Assembly (NCBI RefSeq): GCF_947166265.1
Contig: NZ_CAMVDO010000006.1
Coordinates: 62,001 to 126,000 of the forward strand
DNA length: 64,000 nt
Direction: 5' to 3'
From: an uncultured Fibrobacter sp.
GTDB lineage: Bacteria; Fibrobacterota; Fibrobacteria; Fibrobacterales; Fibrobacteraceae
The translations under genes and the position numbers were made by a program. A model generated the notes under the pieces. It did not search any database. It saw nothing but the letters and a program-made list of their open reading frames with translations, and was not told where the DNA came from. Below are positions 7,991 to 64,000 of the stretch, piece by piece (the stretch's first letter is position 1; every line of letters begins with the position of its first letter).

Positions 7991-9402
7991 AAATGAAGCT
8001 TTTTTACCTGGCGTGTGCAATTGCTGTGGTGTTTTCTGCTTGCAGCAGCGACAAGGTTGCAGGTACCGTTACCGATACGGGCAATACGGTTGCCACAAAT
8101 GAAGGACAGGTTGCTGGTGTTGTTCGTCGCGTAGACGGTAGCCCTGCATCGGATGCGGTCGTTCGCATGGCACGTATGGCCATTTACGATACGATTCTGC
8201 ATATTCCTGAACAGATCGAAGTCGTTACCGATTCCGATGGCGTGTACGCATTTGATTCCGCTATAGCCGATACGTTCCAGCTTGCAGTTATCGATACGTC
8301 GGTAGCGGAAGTGTTTTTCCTGCCGCGTACCACGCTCAAGGCCAAGGCCCTGGACAGTATTACGCTTTCGAAAGCCGCCATTGTCAGTAGCGTTCTTTTC
8401 TTTGAAGATGTCGAAGATTCCTTGGTGTCGGTGGGTGGGCACTTTATGACCTGCCTGTCGGGAACCCCGTTCTGTAACGATGTCTTTGCGGCGGATAGTT
8501 TCTATATGCTGGTGCCTTCGGGAGAATGGACCTTGGAATTTTTCCCGGGCGACTCCATGATGGTGGCGCGTCTCCAGTCTCTGGGCTTTGCCGACAGCCT
8601 CATCTACCGTAGCTGGGACTTGGGAAAGGTGAAGGCCGGTGATACCGTTAATCCTGGTCCGTTTGTTTGGAGTACGACGACCAACGTAGACACCCTGATT
8701 AAGGAAGCTGAAAAGGAAACCGAAAAGGAACCTGAAAACATGGCTCGCCTTACGGGAACGATCCTTTGCAAGAACGGCAATCCCTGTGCCGATGTCGAAG
8801 TGATGACGATTCGCGATATTTACGGATTTGAATTTGTAGAAGGCGATTCCCTGGAATTCGTGTCCGAAACCGTGACCGATAGCCTTGGCCGCTGGTGGTT
8901 GCCGCTTCCCGATACGTTGCCGGGAGATTCCTTTAGAATTGAATTCCGCAAGCGTCAGGACGACCTGGTGACTCAGGTGGGTGTTTCTCGCTATCTGACG
9001 GCCAAGGAAATTAAGGGACTGAAGGATACCCTTAAGGTTGGAAAAGTGACTCTTTCGAAACCTTCGGCGCTGGAAAGCGGAGTTAGCCTTGTGGTTGACC
9101 GTGAAGATTCCTCGCAGTCGAGCAACTGCATGGTGAATAGCGTGGTGGTCGGCATCAAGGGAACGTCTCATTTTGTGCGAGATGCGACCTGTAATCCGAT
9201 CATTTTGTCTGACTTGCCGACGGGAAGCCAAAAGGTCGTTCTTTATTCGGGTATTCCGAAAGCGATCGAGGCCTTGCGTGCGAAATCGAGCATTCCGATG
9301 TCCTATTATGTGACCCTTACGGCGGTTTCTCTCCCCGAAGGGAACATTCAGCGGCAGCAGTGGATGACTTATACTCCACCAAATCAAAATATTTTCAAAT
9401 AA
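7987..9402 (+). CDS. Putative lipoprotein with carboxypeptidase-regulatory-like repeats
   Basis: A 471-residue protein with lipobox FSAC (Cys19). Two segments resemble carboxypeptidase-regulatory/CNA-B-like beta sandwiches: one near residues 38-105 (GQVAGVVRRVDGSPASDAVV... DSDGVYAFD) and one near 252-320 (ARLTGTILCKNGNPCADVEV... DSLGRWWLPLPD). They are joined by an acidic KEAEKETEKEPEN linker at about 238-250. It is translationally coupled to the upstream regulator-like gene by a four-base overlap, with GAGGAGG before the ATG. The duplicated domain layout suggests a surface-exposed scaffold or sensor; no enzymatic motif is seen. Confidence 0.78.
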   Translation: MKMKLFYLACAIAVVFSACSSDKVAGTVTDTGNTVATNEGQVAGVVRRVDGSPASDAVVRMARMAIYDTILHIPEQIEVVTDSDGVYAFDSAIADTFQLAVIDTSVAEVFFLPRTTLKAKALDSITLSKAAIVSSVLFFEDVEDSLVSVGGHFMTCLSGTPFCNDVFAADSFYMLVPSGEWTLEFFPGDSMMVARLQSLGFADSLIYRSWDLGKVKAGDTVNPGPFVWSTTTNVDTLIKEAEKETEKEPENMARLTGTILCKNGNPCADVEVMTIRDIYGFEFVEGDSLEFVSETVTDSLGRWWLPLPDTLPGDSFRIEFRKRQDDLVTQVGVSRYLTAKEIKGLKDTLKVGKVTLSKPSALESGVSLVVDREDSSQSSNCMVNSVVVGIKGTSHFVRDATCNPIILSDLPTGSQKVVLYSGIPKAIEALRAKSSIPMSYYVTLTAVSLPEGNIQRQQWMTYTPPNQNIFK

Positions 9403-56136: not shown

Positions 56137-57084
56137 CTACTTCCTCCGGCTCTTGTTTTCTGAACGAATCAGTACCGACGGATTGTTCTTGATTTTCTGT
56201 GTAAATTCTTCGAGGTTTTCAAGTACGGCGTTGAGTTCCACGACGGCATCCCCGACCTGATCCTGGTTCTTGTAAACCACCTGGTCGAGCCGCTGCGTGA
56301 GCTGGTTGACAGATTCCATCGCTTGCGTAAGGTTCTCGTTCATCGCCTTCGTGTCGATTGCGTCGAGCTTTTCCTTGAGAATGTCGAGGTTTTCGCCCGC
56401 CTTGGAGGCGATTTTCGCATCTTCGATTTCGGCAAGAACGTTTTTCATCGAAGAAGCCGCGCTAGAAATGTTGTTTATGGGTGTGTAGAGGTCCTGCGAC
56501 ATCTTGTTCAGCCGCAGGGTCAGCTTGTTCAGGTTTTCAGTTGCGCCTTCAAAGTTTTTGATGGCGTTGCTGATGTTTTCGGTATTTTCTGCCGAGAATA
56601 CATGGTTCAGGTTGGTGACCAAGGAGTCGACATGTCCTACGATGGAGCTTGCCTGCGAGGCGATTCCGTCAAGCGAAGATTCTTCTGCTGGTATAAAGCC
56701 GCCTTCCGGAACATCGGGTTCGTCGAACTTCCCGCCCGAAAGAACAATCTGCTTTTCACCCGTCAGGGAAATCCCGTGAGTCATGCCTGCGCGTGTTCCC
56801 CTCTTGATGGGGGTTCCCTTGTCGACACGGAAACGCACGACGACCTGGTTCAGGTTTGTAGAGTCGATGTGTATGTCTGTTACGCTACCGACCTTGATGC
56901 CGTTCAGCATCACATGCGCTTCGCCATATAGGCCGATGACCGACTTGTTGAAAATGGTATAGTAGTTGTCGTACTCCCGTGTCAGGTAGCTCGAAAGCAC
57001 GTAGCCCAGAAATACAAGGATGAGAACCCCGCAAAAAAGCATGAATGCGCCGATTCTGATGCGCTCTCTTCGTGTGGTTTCCAT
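56137..57084 (-). CDS. mlaD: MlaD/MCE-family substrate-binding protein
   Basis: A 315-residue protein with one N-terminal TM (about 11-30) and an MCE domain (about 40-125; YTIFNKSVIGLYGEAHVMLNGIKVGSV... ISLTGEKQIVLSGG). The rest is a long helical, coiled region with evenly spaced hydrophobic positions (LVTNLNHVF, LTLRLNKMS, LTQRLDQV), longer than E. coli MlaD. MCE proteins form hexameric pores or tubes that carry lipids across the periplasm. The gene follows mlaF by 12 bases. Confidence 0.9.
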   Translation of the reverse strand: METTRRERIRIGAFMLFCGVLILVFLGYVLSSYLTREYDNYYTIFNKSVIGLYGEAHVMLNGIKVGSVTDIHIDSTNLNQVVVRFRVDKGTPIKRGTRAGMTHGISLTGEKQIVLSGGKFDEPDVPEGGFIPAEESSLDGIASQASSIVGHVDSLVTNLNHVFSAENTENISNAIKNFEGATENLNKLTLRLNKMSQDLYTPINNISSAASSMKNVLAEIEDAKIASKAGENLDILKEKLDAIDTKAMNENLTQAMESVNQLTQRLDQVVYKNQDQVGDAVVELNAVLENLEEFTQKIKNNPSVLIRSENKSRRK

Positions 57085-57096
57085 AGTTACTCCGAA

Positions 57097-57882
57097 TCAG
57101 TCGATAAAGTCAAAGTGGTAATATTCGTTGTTGTCAGGCTCTTTGGGACATTCTCTGTTAAAGAAAGTCTTCAAAATGGGGTCTTCGCTTTCCAGACCTT
57201 GCTTGAGAGTCCCGTCCATATACACGTAGCCGTTTTCAAGGTAAATGAAACGGTCGCAGATAATCTTGATGCTTTCGAGTTCGTGGCTTACGATAACCAT
57301 CGAAATGCCCAGCGTATCGCGAAGTTCTAGCAGAAGTTCGTCTAGCGAGCGGGCGGTCAACGGGTCAAGGCCGGTTGAGGGTTCGTCGCAGAACAGGAGT
57401 TCTGGCTTTAAGGCAATTGCGCGGGCGAGGGCCGCTCGTCTTTGCATACCGCCCGAAAGTTCCGACGGGTACTTGTGGAACGCATGTAGCAGGTGGACCT
57501 TTTCGAGTCTGTCTGCGACAATGGCTTCCATCTGGCTCTTGGGCATGTAGGGCATACTGCGGATAAGCGGAAGCATTGCGTTTTCGGCAACGGTCAGGTC
57601 CGAAAGGAGAGCGCCGTTCTGGAACAGGACTCCGGTACGCATACGGGTGGTGTAGTCAAGTCCACTCTTGGCAGGGAAAGTTTTCCCGAAGTAGGTGATG
57701 GTTCCGCTTTCGGCCTTGTAAAGCTTGAGGATGTTGTTCATGAGGGTTGACTTGCCACAGCCCGAACTTCCAAGAATCATGCGAATTTCGCCCCTTCTAA
57801 CGTCGAAGGAAATATCGTGCAGGACAGTCTTTCCCTTGTAACCGGCTTTTAGGTGATCTACTTTGAGTGTAATGTCTTCCAT
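57097..57882 (-). CDS. mlaF: MlaF-like ABC ATP-binding protein
   Basis: The 261-residue ATPase starts at the ATG behind GGAG (MEDITLKVDHLKAGY); an upstream extension would overlap mlaE. Walker A is GSSGCGKST, the Q-loop lies in GVLFQNGAL, the signature is LSGGMQRRAALARA, and Walker B is LLFCDEPSTGLDP, followed by the switch His in VIVSHE. The GVLFQxGALxxxLTVxEN form is specific to Mla/Ttg2A-type ATPases. It sits between mlaE and mlaD. Confidence 0.94.
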   Translation of the reverse strand: MEDITLKVDHLKAGYKGKTVLHDISFDVRRGEIRMILGSSGCGKSTLMNNILKLYKAESGTITYFGKTFPAKSGLDYTTRMRTGVLFQNGALLSDLTVAENAMLPLIRSMPYMPKSQMEAIVADRLEKVHLLHAFHKYPSELSGGMQRRAALARAIALKPELLFCDEPSTGLDPLTARSLDELLLELRDTLGISMVIVSHELESIKIICDRFIYLENGYVYMDGTLKQGLESEDPILKTFFNRECPKEPDNNEYYHFDFID

Positions 57883-57889
57883 GTTTCTC

Positions 57890-58951
57890 CTAGTAGAATG
57901 CGAAACTGAACGCGCAGTCGGCGACAATGATGCTGGAAATCGAAATGACGACGCTAGAAGTTGTCGCTTGGCCGACTGCTTCGGCGCCACCGGTCGCGTT
58001 CATCCCCCTATTGCATGCAATCAGCGTGACAAGCCAACCGAATACGATGGACTTGATCGTGCTTTTTAGGAACAGTAGGGGCGGAATGCCTTCGCGAATT
58101 TCTTGCATGTAGTTCATGAACGTGATGTCGAAGAAGAAAAATGCGATAACGAAACCGGCGAGGCAACCGGCGATGGCAGAACAGAACGAAAGAATCGGTG
58201 TGCAGATAGTCATGGCGACAAAACGCGGAACTACCAGGTATTGTACCGGCGAAATGGCCATGGTCTTGATGGCCTTGATCTCTTCGCAGACGGACATGTT
58301 CGCAATTTCCGCGGCGATAGAGCTGCCCGAGCGCCCTGCCAAGATAATGGTCGTGAGAAGGGGGCTGATTTCTGCGAAGATGAGATATCCCAGTCCCGAG
58401 GCGAGGTAGGAACCGCCACCGACAGCCTTAAGCATAAAGGAGCTCTGGAGTGCCATGGTAAAGCAGATAAGACCCACCATCAAAAAGCAGATGCCCATGG
58501 CTTCGGCGCCAAGGCGGTAAATTTGCTTTGCGTTACCGCCGAACTTGCTTTTCGCCTTGTCAAAACGTCCGTAAATGGTCCAGTAGACGCATGTGTTCAA
58601 GAGAATGAAAATCTTTGCGACACTGACTGCCGCAACAATTGTCTTTTCTCCAAGGTCTTCGAGGAAGTTTTTCTTGACTTTGACTTTTACGGGGACTTTC
58701 TGCTTTTTAAGGTGTTGCAGGTGCGTCTTGATATCATTGTTAAAGTGGGCGAGCGTAAGCTTGTTCCCGGTCTTTTCGCTAGTTTCTGCAAGAAGTGCGA
58801 AAAAGGCGTCTCCGCTGTAGTCCATGTAGGTCAAGTTAGAACCATCTACGCAAAGTTCGCCTGCGTTGAGCTGCTTTATGCAATCGTACAGCAAATTTTT
58901 GCTGTTGGCCGCAGTCAGTTTTTCGGGAAGTGTGATGGTCTTTCTTTCCAT
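57890..58951 (-). CDS. mlaE: MlaE-like permease with N-terminal STAS domain
   Basis: A 353-residue protein. Residues about 1-90 look like a STAS domain (ITLPEKLTAANSKNLL...ELCVDGSNLTYMDYSGDAFFALL), the same fold as MlaB. Residues about 100-353 are a MlaE permease with four to five TM segments and the GRSGSSIAAEIANMSVCEEIKAIKTMAISP coupling region. So MlaB and MlaE are fused. It is the first gene of the Mla-type operon. TAAATTTA on the minus strand lies seven bases before the ATG. Confidence 0.92.
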   Translation of the reverse strand: MERKTITLPEKLTAANSKNLLYDCIKQLNAGELCVDGSNLTYMDYSGDAFFALLAETSEKTGNKLTLAHFNNDIKTHLQHLKKQKVPVKVKVKKNFLEDLGEKTIVAAVSVAKIFILLNTCVYWTIYGRFDKAKSKFGGNAKQIYRLGAEAMGICFLMVGLICFTMALQSSFMLKAVGGGSYLASGLGYLIFAEISPLLTTIILAGRSGSSIAAEIANMSVCEEIKAIKTMAISPVQYLVVPRFVAMTICTPILSFCSAIAGCLAGFVIAFFFFDITFMNYMQEIREGIPPLLFLKSTIKSIVFGWLVTLIACNRGMNATGGAEAVGQATTSSVVISISSIIVADCAFSFAFY

Positions 58952-61406: not shown

Positions 61407-61438
61407 AAGAAAGAACCCCGTTGCCAGGGTTCTTTGTT
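61407..61438 (-). terminator. Shared terminator after helicase and peptide genes
   Basis: AAGAACCC pairs with GGGTTCTT. On the minus strand it is followed by TCTTGC; on the plus strand by TGTTACATTT. It lies 27 bases beyond the stop of the second peptide gene and serves that group. Confidence 0.7.
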
Positions 61439-61464: not shown

Positions 61465-61605
61465 CTAGTCCTTTTCCACTTCCATGCACGCAGGGAACAC
61501 GCAAGGGCTTGATTCCAGCAGGCTCGCGGTTTGCTTCAGCGCAATAATCTTGACTGCGGGAGTGGAATACTCCTTCTTTTGCCTTACCGTTTCCGTGTTA
61601 TGCAT
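61465..61605 (-). CDS. Small Cys-pair peptide 2 (46 residues)
   Basis: Starts MHNTETVRQKKEYSTP; AAGGA lies five bases before the ATG, inside the end of the upstream peptide gene. The two genes overlap by eight bases. Cys35 and Cys40 lie in SSPCVFPACMEVEKD near the C-terminus. Alignment with peptide 1 by eye keeps K-K-x-Y-[TS]-x-P, then I-I/V-I, then S-L-L-E-[CS]-S and C-M-E at the same spacing. No signal peptide is seen. Function unknown; small peptides with a YxxPxxxV-like start behind surface-protein genes occur in rumen Bacteroidales (recollection, not searched). Confidence 0.75.
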   Translation of the reverse strand: MHNTETVRQKKEYSTPAVKIIALKQTASLLESSPCVFPACMEVEKD

Positions 61606-61744
61606 AGAAATCCTTGGGGCTGTCAGCCTGACCCATTTCTTCCATGCAGCCTCCGCTACATTCGAGAAGGCTAGGCCGATATTGAATTTCGATGACCTCG
61701 ATGGTCGGGACAGTGTAGGGTTTCTTATTTTGTTCGTTATTCAT
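61598..61744 (-). CDS. Small Cys-pair peptide 1 (48 residues)
   Basis: Starts MNNEQNKKPYTVP at the second of two in-frame ATGs, because TAGGAG lies seven bases before it; the first ATG (61750) would give 50 residues but only one base of spacing. Cys29 and Cys33 lie in LLECSGGCMEEMG. The stop of the surface protein is seven bases before the first ATG, so the genes are likely coupled. The YTVPTIEVIEI stretch matches YSTPAVKIIAL of peptide 2. The GG before Cys33 is reminiscent of double-glycine leader sites, but no peptidase or modifying enzyme is nearby. Confidence 0.78.
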   Translation of the reverse strand: MNNEQNKKPYTVPTIEVIEIQYRPSLLECSGGCMEEMGQADSPKDFYA

Positions 61745-61757
61745 TCGCATTCTCCTA

Positions 61758-62216: not shown

Positions 62217-64000
62217 CTACGTGCCGCGGAACTCCCACTGAACACCTTCCTTTTTGAAACCGTAGGGATGCTTTTCGCTAGTATTGAGAGTGACTGGTTC
62301 TTTGAAGGTGAGCTTCGTGGCAGTGGGTTGCAGCAGGTAGGGCGTATTTGCCTCAATTTTGTCAGTAACCTTGGCAATATGGACGAGGCCCCAAATGGTG
62401 TCGTTGCCAACAATTTTGACATCAATGTCATGAATCTTGTAAAAAACGGCACCTTCAACTGAACCCGCTGCAATTCCAAACGGGAGCACAATGGTGGAAT
62501 ACTTGTCCACTGTGAACGTACGATTGAATTCAACCGAAACGTTCTCGATGTCTTTGGGGATATTTACAGTACCTTCGCCCTTGTACTCGCCGTTGATTTC
62601 GGCTCGCTTGCCGTTTTCGTCTTCGAAAACTTGGATTGCAGCGAAAGTGGTTTTCTTAGTTTCAACGGTTAGCGTTCCACTTACGAAATTGATTTCGTAA
62701 TTATCCGCAGTCAAACCGCCCGGCGTAATGGTATATTCGCCAGTCTTGTTCCCCTTCTTGTAGTTGTATCCATAAGTCAGTGTTCCGCCCAAAACAGATG
62801 CATCATCCGAGCCCAAGAAGCCGTTGTATTCAACACCGTCATTCGCAGGCTCATCACCGTAGACAATGGTTTTGTCCTTGGCGGTGATTGTCAAGGGAGC
62901 CTTGGTAATTTCAAAAGTCTTCGAAATGGAGCCGGGGTAGTCGCCCATGCCGGTGATGGTCATGTTGGCGGTTCCGGCCGATACGTTGTCAGCACATTCG
63001 ACCGTATAATCGGTACCAAGGATGAGCGTTGTTTCGCCGTCTTTCACGGAAATTTCGGGACAAATCTCAGAACCAGAGTAAGTCTGGTCGGGGATGGTGG
63101 CGATAGTGATATCTGAATGAGTGAGGAGTTTAATAATTCTAAATGTCTTCTCCACATAGCCCAGCGATGAATAGTCGCCTTGGAAGGTGGCTCTTACGGT
63201 CGCCGTGCCAGCATTCGTATTATTCATGTAAGAATATACATAGTCCGTGCCTTTGGTGAGGTTGAGCGAGCCGGCTATGACGAGCGGCTCGGGGGTGATT
63301 TCGCTGCCTGTGTAGGTCTGGTCGGGCACGACATCTATCTGACCGGCGGTTTTCAGAATAGATACATTCCACCTGCCGTTGCCGGCATCGGTCATCGTGA
63401 TGTCGTAGTAGCCTGCCGGGGCCACACTTTCAAGGCTGAATTTTGTATTCATCCCCGATTCATAGAATGCCCCTGTGCCACCGGAATAGGGGATGTTCGC
63501 TTGGTATGTGTTGTTGTCTAAAAAGAATTTGCTGTAGCTGTTTACTGCATATTTCCGAATCTGACACGACCAACCCTGCTGAAGATTTACAGTGGTCAAG
63601 CCGTCGTATATGGTTTCTACGACTTCGCTGTACGGACCATCTGTTAAAAACCTCCACTCGAACTCTGTTGTGCCGTGAGTACCTTGTTCAAACACTGCAC
63701 TAACTGTCACATTGCCCTTGGGCATCAGGAAAGTATTACTAGTTGATGAAACATCATTGTTTTCAGCATCCTTTACAACAAGGCGGCTTAACCTGTATCC
63801 AAAATCAGGCGTGGTGGTTATCGTCACCATTTCCATATACTTAGCCGTAGTAGCACCCGTCAACGTACCGTGCTCGATACCGTCCGCAATGGTGATGGTG
63901 TAGTCGGTATCGTCTTTCGGTACGATAACACGGCGGTTGCCGTCCTCGTTGATAGTAAAGTAGTCGCTGGCGATTGAGGTCACATCAGTCTCACCGTGTT
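62217..64000 (-). CDS. Large surface protein with Ig-like/MBG repeats, truncated by in-frame TAG (5' end outside window)
   Basis: The frame is open to the right edge, so the N-terminus is missing; an internal GTG at 63983 is not the start. Seen from N to C: an InlB-like/Bacterial repeat unit (YTITIADGIEHGTLTGATTAKYMEMV, then GYRLSRLVV and MPKGNVTVSAVFE), two related Ig-like repeats (VPDQTYTGSEITPEPLV and IPDQTYSGSEICPEISV), and an MBG-type unit (APLTITAKDKTIVYGDEPA). A beta-rich end follows (STIVLPFGIAAGSVEG). It stops at WEFRGT before the TAG. It is probably a secreted adhesin-like protein of type IX secretion that lost its tail. Confidence 0.8.
   Translation of the reverse strand, partial: HGETDVTSIASDYFTINEDGNRRVIVPKDDTDYTITIADGIEHGTLTGATTAKYMEMVTITTTPDFGYRLSRLVVKDAENNDVSSTSNTFLMPKGNVTVSAVFEQGTHGTTEFEWRFLTDGPYSEVVETIYDGLTTVNLQQGWSCQIRKYAVNSYSKFFLDNNTYQANIPYSGGTGAFYESGMNTKFSLESVAPAGYYDITMTDAGNGRWNVSILKTAGQIDVVPDQTYTGSEITPEPLVIAGSLNLTKGTDYVYSYMNNTNAGTATVRATFQGDYSSLGYVEKTFRIIKLLTHSDITIATIPDQTYSGSEICPEISVKDGETTLILGTDYTVECADNVSAGTANMTITGMGDYPGSISKTFEITKAPLTITAKDKTIVYGDEPANDGVEYNGFLGSDDASVLGGTLTYGYNYKKGNKTGEYTITPGGLTADNYEINFVSGTLTVETKKTTFAAIQVFEDENGKRAEINGEYKGEGTVNIPKDIENVSVEFNRTFTVDKYSTIVLPFGIAAGSVEGAVFYKIHDIDVKIVGNDTIWGLVHIAKVTDKIEANTPYLLQPTATKLTFKEPVTLNTSEKHPYGFKKEGVQWEFRGT

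Follow-up and report, generated by a model that had tools for sequence, protein, structure and literature searches.

Two short, overlapping genes of an uncultured Fibrobacter sp. very probably (a probability of roughly 0.83) encode precursor peptides of a RiPP-like pathway, which would be matured in trans by one enzyme operon and whose precursor genes are scattered, mostly behind genes for surface proteins. Both genes lie near the end of a 64,000-nucleotide stretch of DNA, here called the window. The reading draws on a peptide gene family, an enzyme operon, the co-occurrence of the two, a linkage to surface-protein genes, and purifying selection, all of which were observed directly in the genomes compared. 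The reference for several predictions is the class of linear polyphosphorylated peptides (LPP), whose lpp clusters were described in Paenibacillus/Bacillota (Popov et al., May 2026; PMC13381572). The relevant features are:

61410..61435, no strand assigned: hairpin separating the peptide genes from a uvrD-like gene that converges on them, with a terminator score on the plus strand.
61465..61605, minus strand: peptide 2, 46 aa, MHNTETVRQKKEYSTPAVKIIALKQTASLLESSPCVFPACMEVEKD, the second proposed RiPP precursor (profile match 2.4e-11).
61507..61509, minus strand: Ser33 of peptide 2, predicted core Ser3 from alignment with xxS3 of LPP precursors (PMC13381572).
61598..61744, minus strand: peptide 1, 48 aa, MNNEQNKKPYTVPTIEVIEIQYRPSLLECSGGCMEEMGQADSPKDFYA, proposed RiPP precursor (profile match 2.0e-14).
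61655..61657, minus strand: Ser30 of peptide 1, predicted core Ser3 and phosphorylation site from the same alignment (PMC13381572).
61758..62213, minus strand: C-terminal fragment of a surface protein with a T9SS short-CTD-like tail ending in ...TTVIGKINTRTGEIRLNSRSVDRWFDLQGRVLNGKPSVKGRYLHNGKIEIVK, seen as a reading frame; the same tail type precedes most family peptides.
62217..64000, minus strand: body of the surface protein with InlB B-repeat-like and MBG domains (PF18676, 1.5e-15; PF18998, 2.2e-11).

Both peptide ORFs are real, as a previous sequence-only reading had held: each frame on the minus strand has a ribosome binding site, the end of peptide 1 overlaps the start of peptide 2 by 8 nt, and homologues and purifying selection were found. 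For peptide 1, the ATG at 61744 stands 7 nt past AGGAG and has the better-spaced site, while that of the alternative start at 61750 (61598-61750, 50 aa) stands merely 1 nt past it; peptide 2 has AAGGA 5 nt ahead of its ATG. The motifs shared by the two peptides and their identical Y-to-SLL distance of 15 residues were also borne out. The 7-nt gap reported between the surface-protein stop (61758) and peptide 1 is correct for the 61750 start and becomes 13 nt for the better start at 61744. The surface protein described upstream is represented by its C-terminal tail, in a fragment of only 151 codons; an in-frame TAG at 62217-62219 interrupts the gene with the frame kept on both sides, which is due to a nonsense mutation of recent date or to an error in the assembly. 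Its body runs past the window end to a signal peptide (N-terminus in locus L043), and the two downstream peptide ORFs are intact despite the TAG. The terminator said to close the group was reassigned: the hairpin at 61410-61435 shows no more than a weak T tail on the minus strand, where the peptides are encoded, is probably a shared terminator, and reads best as the terminator of the convergent helicase gene. About 2.5 kb past the window end (L043, ~8380-8641, plus strand; G000:C6:128.4-128.6 kb in the same genome), the module occurs once more in decayed form, with just the last ~40 codons of a surface tail near-identical to that in the window and then an intact family peptide (MNRKFEKKYYIAPAIKVVELRRQENLLQCSKCNLEELGLADRPKEFLG). 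Elsewhere in the window, three adjoining genes (56137-58951, minus strand) resemble ordinary Mla/MCE lipid transport genes and encode an MCE-domain protein, an ABC ATPase, and a permease with a STAS-like N-terminus.

The two peptides belong to a family that is widespread in the genus. A two-row profile detected 11 copies in their own genome (these two and nine further ones) and copies across most genus genomes. With a broader profile (A5, E<=0.01), 13 copies were identified in the own genome and homologues in 56 of 61 Fibrobacter-genus genomes, compared with 0 of 40 other Fibrobacterota genomes outside the genus; a tblastn-type check proposed earlier, performed here by profile search, thus gave a positive answer. 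Scanning genome contigs with a single peptide yielded no confirmed relative, the peptides being both too short and too divergent to be found in that way, whereas the whole-genome profile search succeeded. Family peptides were also identified in 20 of 20 Bacteroidota genomes (1 to 30 each; mostly rumen Prevotella and relatives), which had been selected for carrying the companion kinase. In Prevotella sp. Tb.RUG.463 (G110, the genome of locus L129) and in G169, 30 and 16 precursor copies are present, most of them on separate contigs; the isolates Prevotella sp. tf2-5 and MA2016 have 20 and 4. The top-scoring family member in the genus is found in the own genome (G000:C9:18378-18503, locus L006), 36 nt 3' of a HisH-looking gene and not of a surface protein. 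Precursor genes of 40-50 aa are easily overlooked by annotation and the peptides match none of the families in Pfam or NCBIfam, so that mining for compact clusters would miss the scattered copies.

Conservation is concentrated in a nearly ungapped block, KKxYxxPxMxVVxLxx[H]QxxLLxxS, which is followed by a variable tail. Across 161 distinct peptides, Y is conserved in 99%, P in 100%, LL in 78-86%, and S at Y+20 in 84%, and the tails differ between paralogues. A precursor-peptide family with a conserved N-terminal half and a variable tail, as anticipated from the window alone, is strongly supported by the homologues, by the statistics on gene context, and by an operon with fitting maturation enzymes. 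Over 15 close pairs, which are partly non-independent, pN/pS was 0.38 for the leader and 0.29 for the tail; codon constraint, another check put forward earlier, is therefore present, and these ratios indicate purifying selection on both leaders and tails when close relatives are compared. An end resembling FGLAPxPxDHLA, a pattern chosen after the data had been viewed, is shared by 15 tails including that of peptide 1. In four Bacteroidales loci (L202, L204, L207, and L208), the leader is followed by a different core type, roughly MM[ST]xPPG[DH]P instead of LLxxS; several of these peptides adjoin genes for the kinase and a RiPP recognition element (RRE) or lie in their vicinity, and they possibly represent a separate product class.

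The cysteine pairs of the two peptides (C-x3-C and C-x4-C) are not a signature of the family: tails with 0, 1, 2, and 3 or more cysteines number 42, 8, 34, and 2 among 86 non-redundant Fibrobacter tails and 59, 2, 0, and 0 in Bacteroidota. It is very unlikely that the cysteines are the purpose of the molecule, as in a secreted disulfide or metal-binding peptide. Two-cysteine Fibrobacter tails do occur far above chance (34 of 86 versus 15 expected, with a maximum of 25 in 5000 shuffles of letters among tails), and 19 of the 34 pairs begin at the LLxCS position, but leader, operon, and placement are unchanged in the 42 Fibrobacter and the 59 of 61 Bacteroidota tails that have no cysteine. The pair can be no more than a subsidiary trait of the core, where paired-cysteine chemistry may constitute a second modification in Fibrobacter. 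Among the roles suggested earlier, a secreted disulfide peptide is thus conceivable for the two-cysteine Fibrobacter subset and does not suit the remaining tails; a metal-binding accessory of the surface protein found no support, and a modified peptide fits the RRE-type leader and the matching operon.

PqqD-type RREs recognize leaders that carry YxxP and then a hydrophobic residue, and since the peptides contain YxxP, RREs of this type were looked for. A standalone PqqD-like RRE of ~90 aa is encoded in one copy in 56 of 61 genus genomes. In the own genome, it belongs to an operon on a contig other than that of the window (G000:C50, locus L071, 4739-9720), in which a family peptide, MDTKEIEMESKRVYVAPEMSEVEYLFQGALLEGSDCNEQGAACLEPHP, is followed by genes for five proteins: an NTP transferase, an HprK-like kinase, a signal-peptidase-like protease (Ser/His/Asp), the PqqD RRE, and an MsbA-like exporter. 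Because each genome has a single RRE and a single kinase, we infer that the peptides of the window use this operon from their separate contig. In 20 pqqD loci examined, the order kinase-protease-RRE-exporter is kept, protease or kinase scores above threshold in nearly all, and a family peptide lies immediately 5' of the operon in most; the NTP transferase is present in 16 of 20 Fibrobacter pqqD loci and is less frequent near Prevotella operons.

Searches against Pfam and NCBIfam in the own genome identified the NTP transferase as NTP_transf_5 (3.6e-45) and the RRE as PqqD (PF05402, 2.7e-12). The RREs also match ScmD (TIGR04248, best 3e-10), and their profile matches the leader-bound structures TfuB1, TbiB1, and PbaB1 as well as LppB, which scores below the lasso B1 proteins. 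A PDB search with a single RRE returned only spurious TALE-repeat matches and no significant domain, and the profile search was used instead. The kinase matches ScmC (TIGR04249, 4e-6); its Pfam Hpr_kinase_C and HPr kinase scores are below the cut-off in Fibrobacter, so that the assignment is by fold and motifs, namely a Walker motif GxSGTGKST in 101 of 107 homologues and a predicted model (pLDDT 94.9) with a PEPCK/HprK superfamily fold match (E=3e-7). This model was built from 67 sequences; an earlier one from nine sequences was poor. The protease, of S24/S26 type, matches archaeal-type signal peptidase TIGR02228 (1.3e-8) below the curated cut-off, and the Ser/His/Asp pattern is kept in 100 of 102 homologues. 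The exporter is an MsbA-type ABC protein (ABC_membrane and ABC_tran) without a peptidase domain of its own. In one Bacteroidales genome (L215:7095-9377, minus strand), protease and ABC exporter form one polypeptide, encoded in an operon with RRE and kinase next to a T9SS cargo gene, as would be expected of a leader protease coupled to export.

Similarity to lasso systems raises the question of whether the peptides could be lasso precursors with a YxxP leader and a core folded into a lariat. The peptides have their best matches, all weak, among the lasso leader models of NCBIfam (E=0.028) and in the TfuA leader seen bound to an RRE, and lasso B1 proteins are the closest match to the RRE. However, the B2 leader peptidase (PF13471, Transglut_core3) occurs in 0 of 61 genus genomes, no asparagine-synthetase-like macrolactam cyclase was noticed among the ORFs of the operon neighborhoods read, no conserved Gly follows the predicted cut, and core positions 7-9 have no fixed Asp/Glu. 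A lasso assignment is extremely unlikely and was rejected on the absence of B2.

Kinase and peptides co-occur closely. Among 101 Fibrobacterota genomes, 53 have both, three the peptide only, one the kinase only, and 44 neither (Fisher p=8e-24; p=3e-4 within the genus alone), and the corresponding counts in 198 Bacteroidales genomes (the order of Prevotella sp. MA2016) are 10, 2, 17, and 169 (p=2e-8). These p-values overstate independence because the genomes are related; the pattern nonetheless recurs in two phyla. Three genomes with peptides and no detected kinase (G018, G026, and G041) are all contaminated or incomplete, and the kinase occurs without peptides in G039. Matches in the scan with the kinase came from Fibrobacter and rumen Prevotella/Bacteroidales, with up to 62% identity to the query, and Bacteroidota loci mostly show the identical kinase-protease-RRE-exporter order. 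Resemblance of this degree between phyla that share a habitat points to possible horizontal transfer.

The peptide genes are physically linked to surface proteins with T9SS-like tails. For 160 distinct peptides with sufficient upstream sequence, 113 directly follow a tail-type gene, agreeing with the proposal that copies would stand behind other surface-protein genes, while 12 follow another family peptide and 35 something else, about seven of the latter being tails missed by the pattern used ([YF]-D-L-x-G-R-x(n)-G-x-Y-x(n)-K, hand-written). Large ORFs ending <=160 nt from a peptide start have such a tail in 38 of 47 cases versus 20 of 495 background ORFs from these loci (odds ratio 100, p=4e-35), an enrichment whose size is approximate, as the pattern was hand-written and the loci were picked for peptides, and whose direction is not in doubt. 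Tails of the window type resemble the short T9SS signals of Prevotella intermedia (PMC11969387), with ~45 aa, Y-D-L-x-G-R, G-x-Y, and a final basic-residue motif. In a TIGR04183 search, the window and Prevotella tails give no match, and a profile-profile comparison between the tails of Fibrobacter/Prevotella and those of TIGR04183 type gave no significant similarity; the former are therefore called T9SS-like by motif only. In other Bacteroidales (L210, L211, L215, and L217), the operon sits with T9SS cargo genes whose products pass the TIGR04183 cut-off. An earlier publication put forward a T9SS for the cellulases of F. succinogenes (PMC6851124), and the SprA translocon was found in 9 of 9 genomes checked, which is weak evidence since 188 of 198 Bacteroidales-order genomes have SprA and three kinase-bearing genomes do not. 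Presence or absence of SprA proved uninformative about T9SS dependence. Our literature search found no paper joining T9SS with RiPP precursor peptides.

Tight siting behind cargo genes, together with the absence of enzyme genes beside the peptides of the window, would also be expected of unmodified small partner proteins of the surface proteins, such as a secretion chaperone or assembly factor, acting independently of the RRE operon. We consider this unlikely: the conserved half matches RRE leaders, peptides co-occur strongly with the kinase and also directly precede the enzyme operon, and the tails, where contact with a partner would be expected, vary most between paralogues.

In the preferred reading as RiPP-like precursors, the PqqD-type RRE would bind the KKxYxxPxM leader, the HprK/ScmC-like kinase would phosphorylate the near-invariant Ser of LLxxS (core Ser3), the NTP transferase may add a further group, the signal-peptidase-like Ser/His/Asp protease would cleave after LL, and the MsbA-like ABC protein would export the core. 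The cut was placed after LL (LL/xxS) because the near-invariant Ser aligns with Ser3 of LPP, and is predicted after Leu27 in peptide 1 (LL/ECS) and after Leu30 in peptide 2 (LL/ESS). As the precursors are mostly located directly behind genes for secreted proteins, peptide and surface protein would be made together, and any contact between peptide and cargo is putative. Since they would be co-expressed with T9SS-like cargo, the modified peptides may act at the cell surface or be attached to it, and the LPP loci of Bacilli in capsule regions point likewise. A tentative extension, possible though rather doubtful, is that every T9SS-like surface protein has its own modified peptide, exported and joined to or acting on the protein or its anchoring glycan; if so, one enzyme operon would decorate many surface proteins with different peptides.

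Several lineages of known systems share parts of this machinery. In the SynChlorMet cassette, which includes radical SAM proteins, the counterparts are ScmC and ScmD, matched by our kinase and RREs, respectively; no radical SAM protein was seen in the Fibrobacter enzyme operon. Paeninodin and the Bsf-type phosphorylated lasso peptide, in which an HprK kinase acts on Ser3 (PMC10368454), similarly have a YxxPxL leader, an RRE (B1), an HprK kinase acting on Ser, an NTP transferase, and an exporter, but lasso peptides need a B2 peptidase and a macrolactam cyclase, and the protease here is of another class. A survey of Bacteroidales RiPPs does not mention HPr kinase, nucleotidyltransferase, or Fibrobacter, and PqqD appears just in its references.

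In LPP, LppB (RRE) binds YxxP, LppK adds several phosphates to core Ser3, LppS (S29/H68/D93) cuts the leader aided by LppB, and LppD is the exporter (PMC13381572). The present system likewise has a discrete PqqD-type RRE, an HprK-like kinase, an NTP transferase, an archaeal-type S/H/D protease, and an MsbA-like exporter, needs no cyclase, and shares a conserved YxxP leader with a hydrophobic residue at +5, a partial HQ, xxS at the leader-core junction, and a variable C-terminus. LPP precursors have the consensus YxxPxVLxHQxIxFETxxS, ending in FET/xxS3 (PMC13381572), whereas LL precedes the predicted cut here, the leader reads PxMxVVxLxxQxxLL rather than PxVLxHQxIxFET, and the distance from Y to Ser is 20 instead of 18 residues; the cores here are short (~30 aa or fewer). 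Judged by gene content and leader, the system therefore appears to work like LPP, and membership is not claimed as FET is absent. LPP loci contain one to three precursors beside the enzymes and are located in capsule regions in Bacilli (PMC13381572), a surface theme that recurs here with surface proteins, although up to 30 precursors are here scattered genome-wide behind T9SS-like cargo genes.

LPP was reported as restricted to Bacillota, with a Bacillota-only RRE clade (PMC13381572). By gene content, an LPP-like enzyme set in Fibrobacterota and Bacteroidota appears to be new and would extend the class to two further phyla of major plant-fiber degraders. Also new are the genome-wide scattering of precursors, which would provide one RRE, kinase, and protease with many natural substrates, and the strong physical association of these precursors with secreted proteins that end in T9SS-like signals. 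The link to surface genes makes the role of the peptides reported here testable through the surface proteins.
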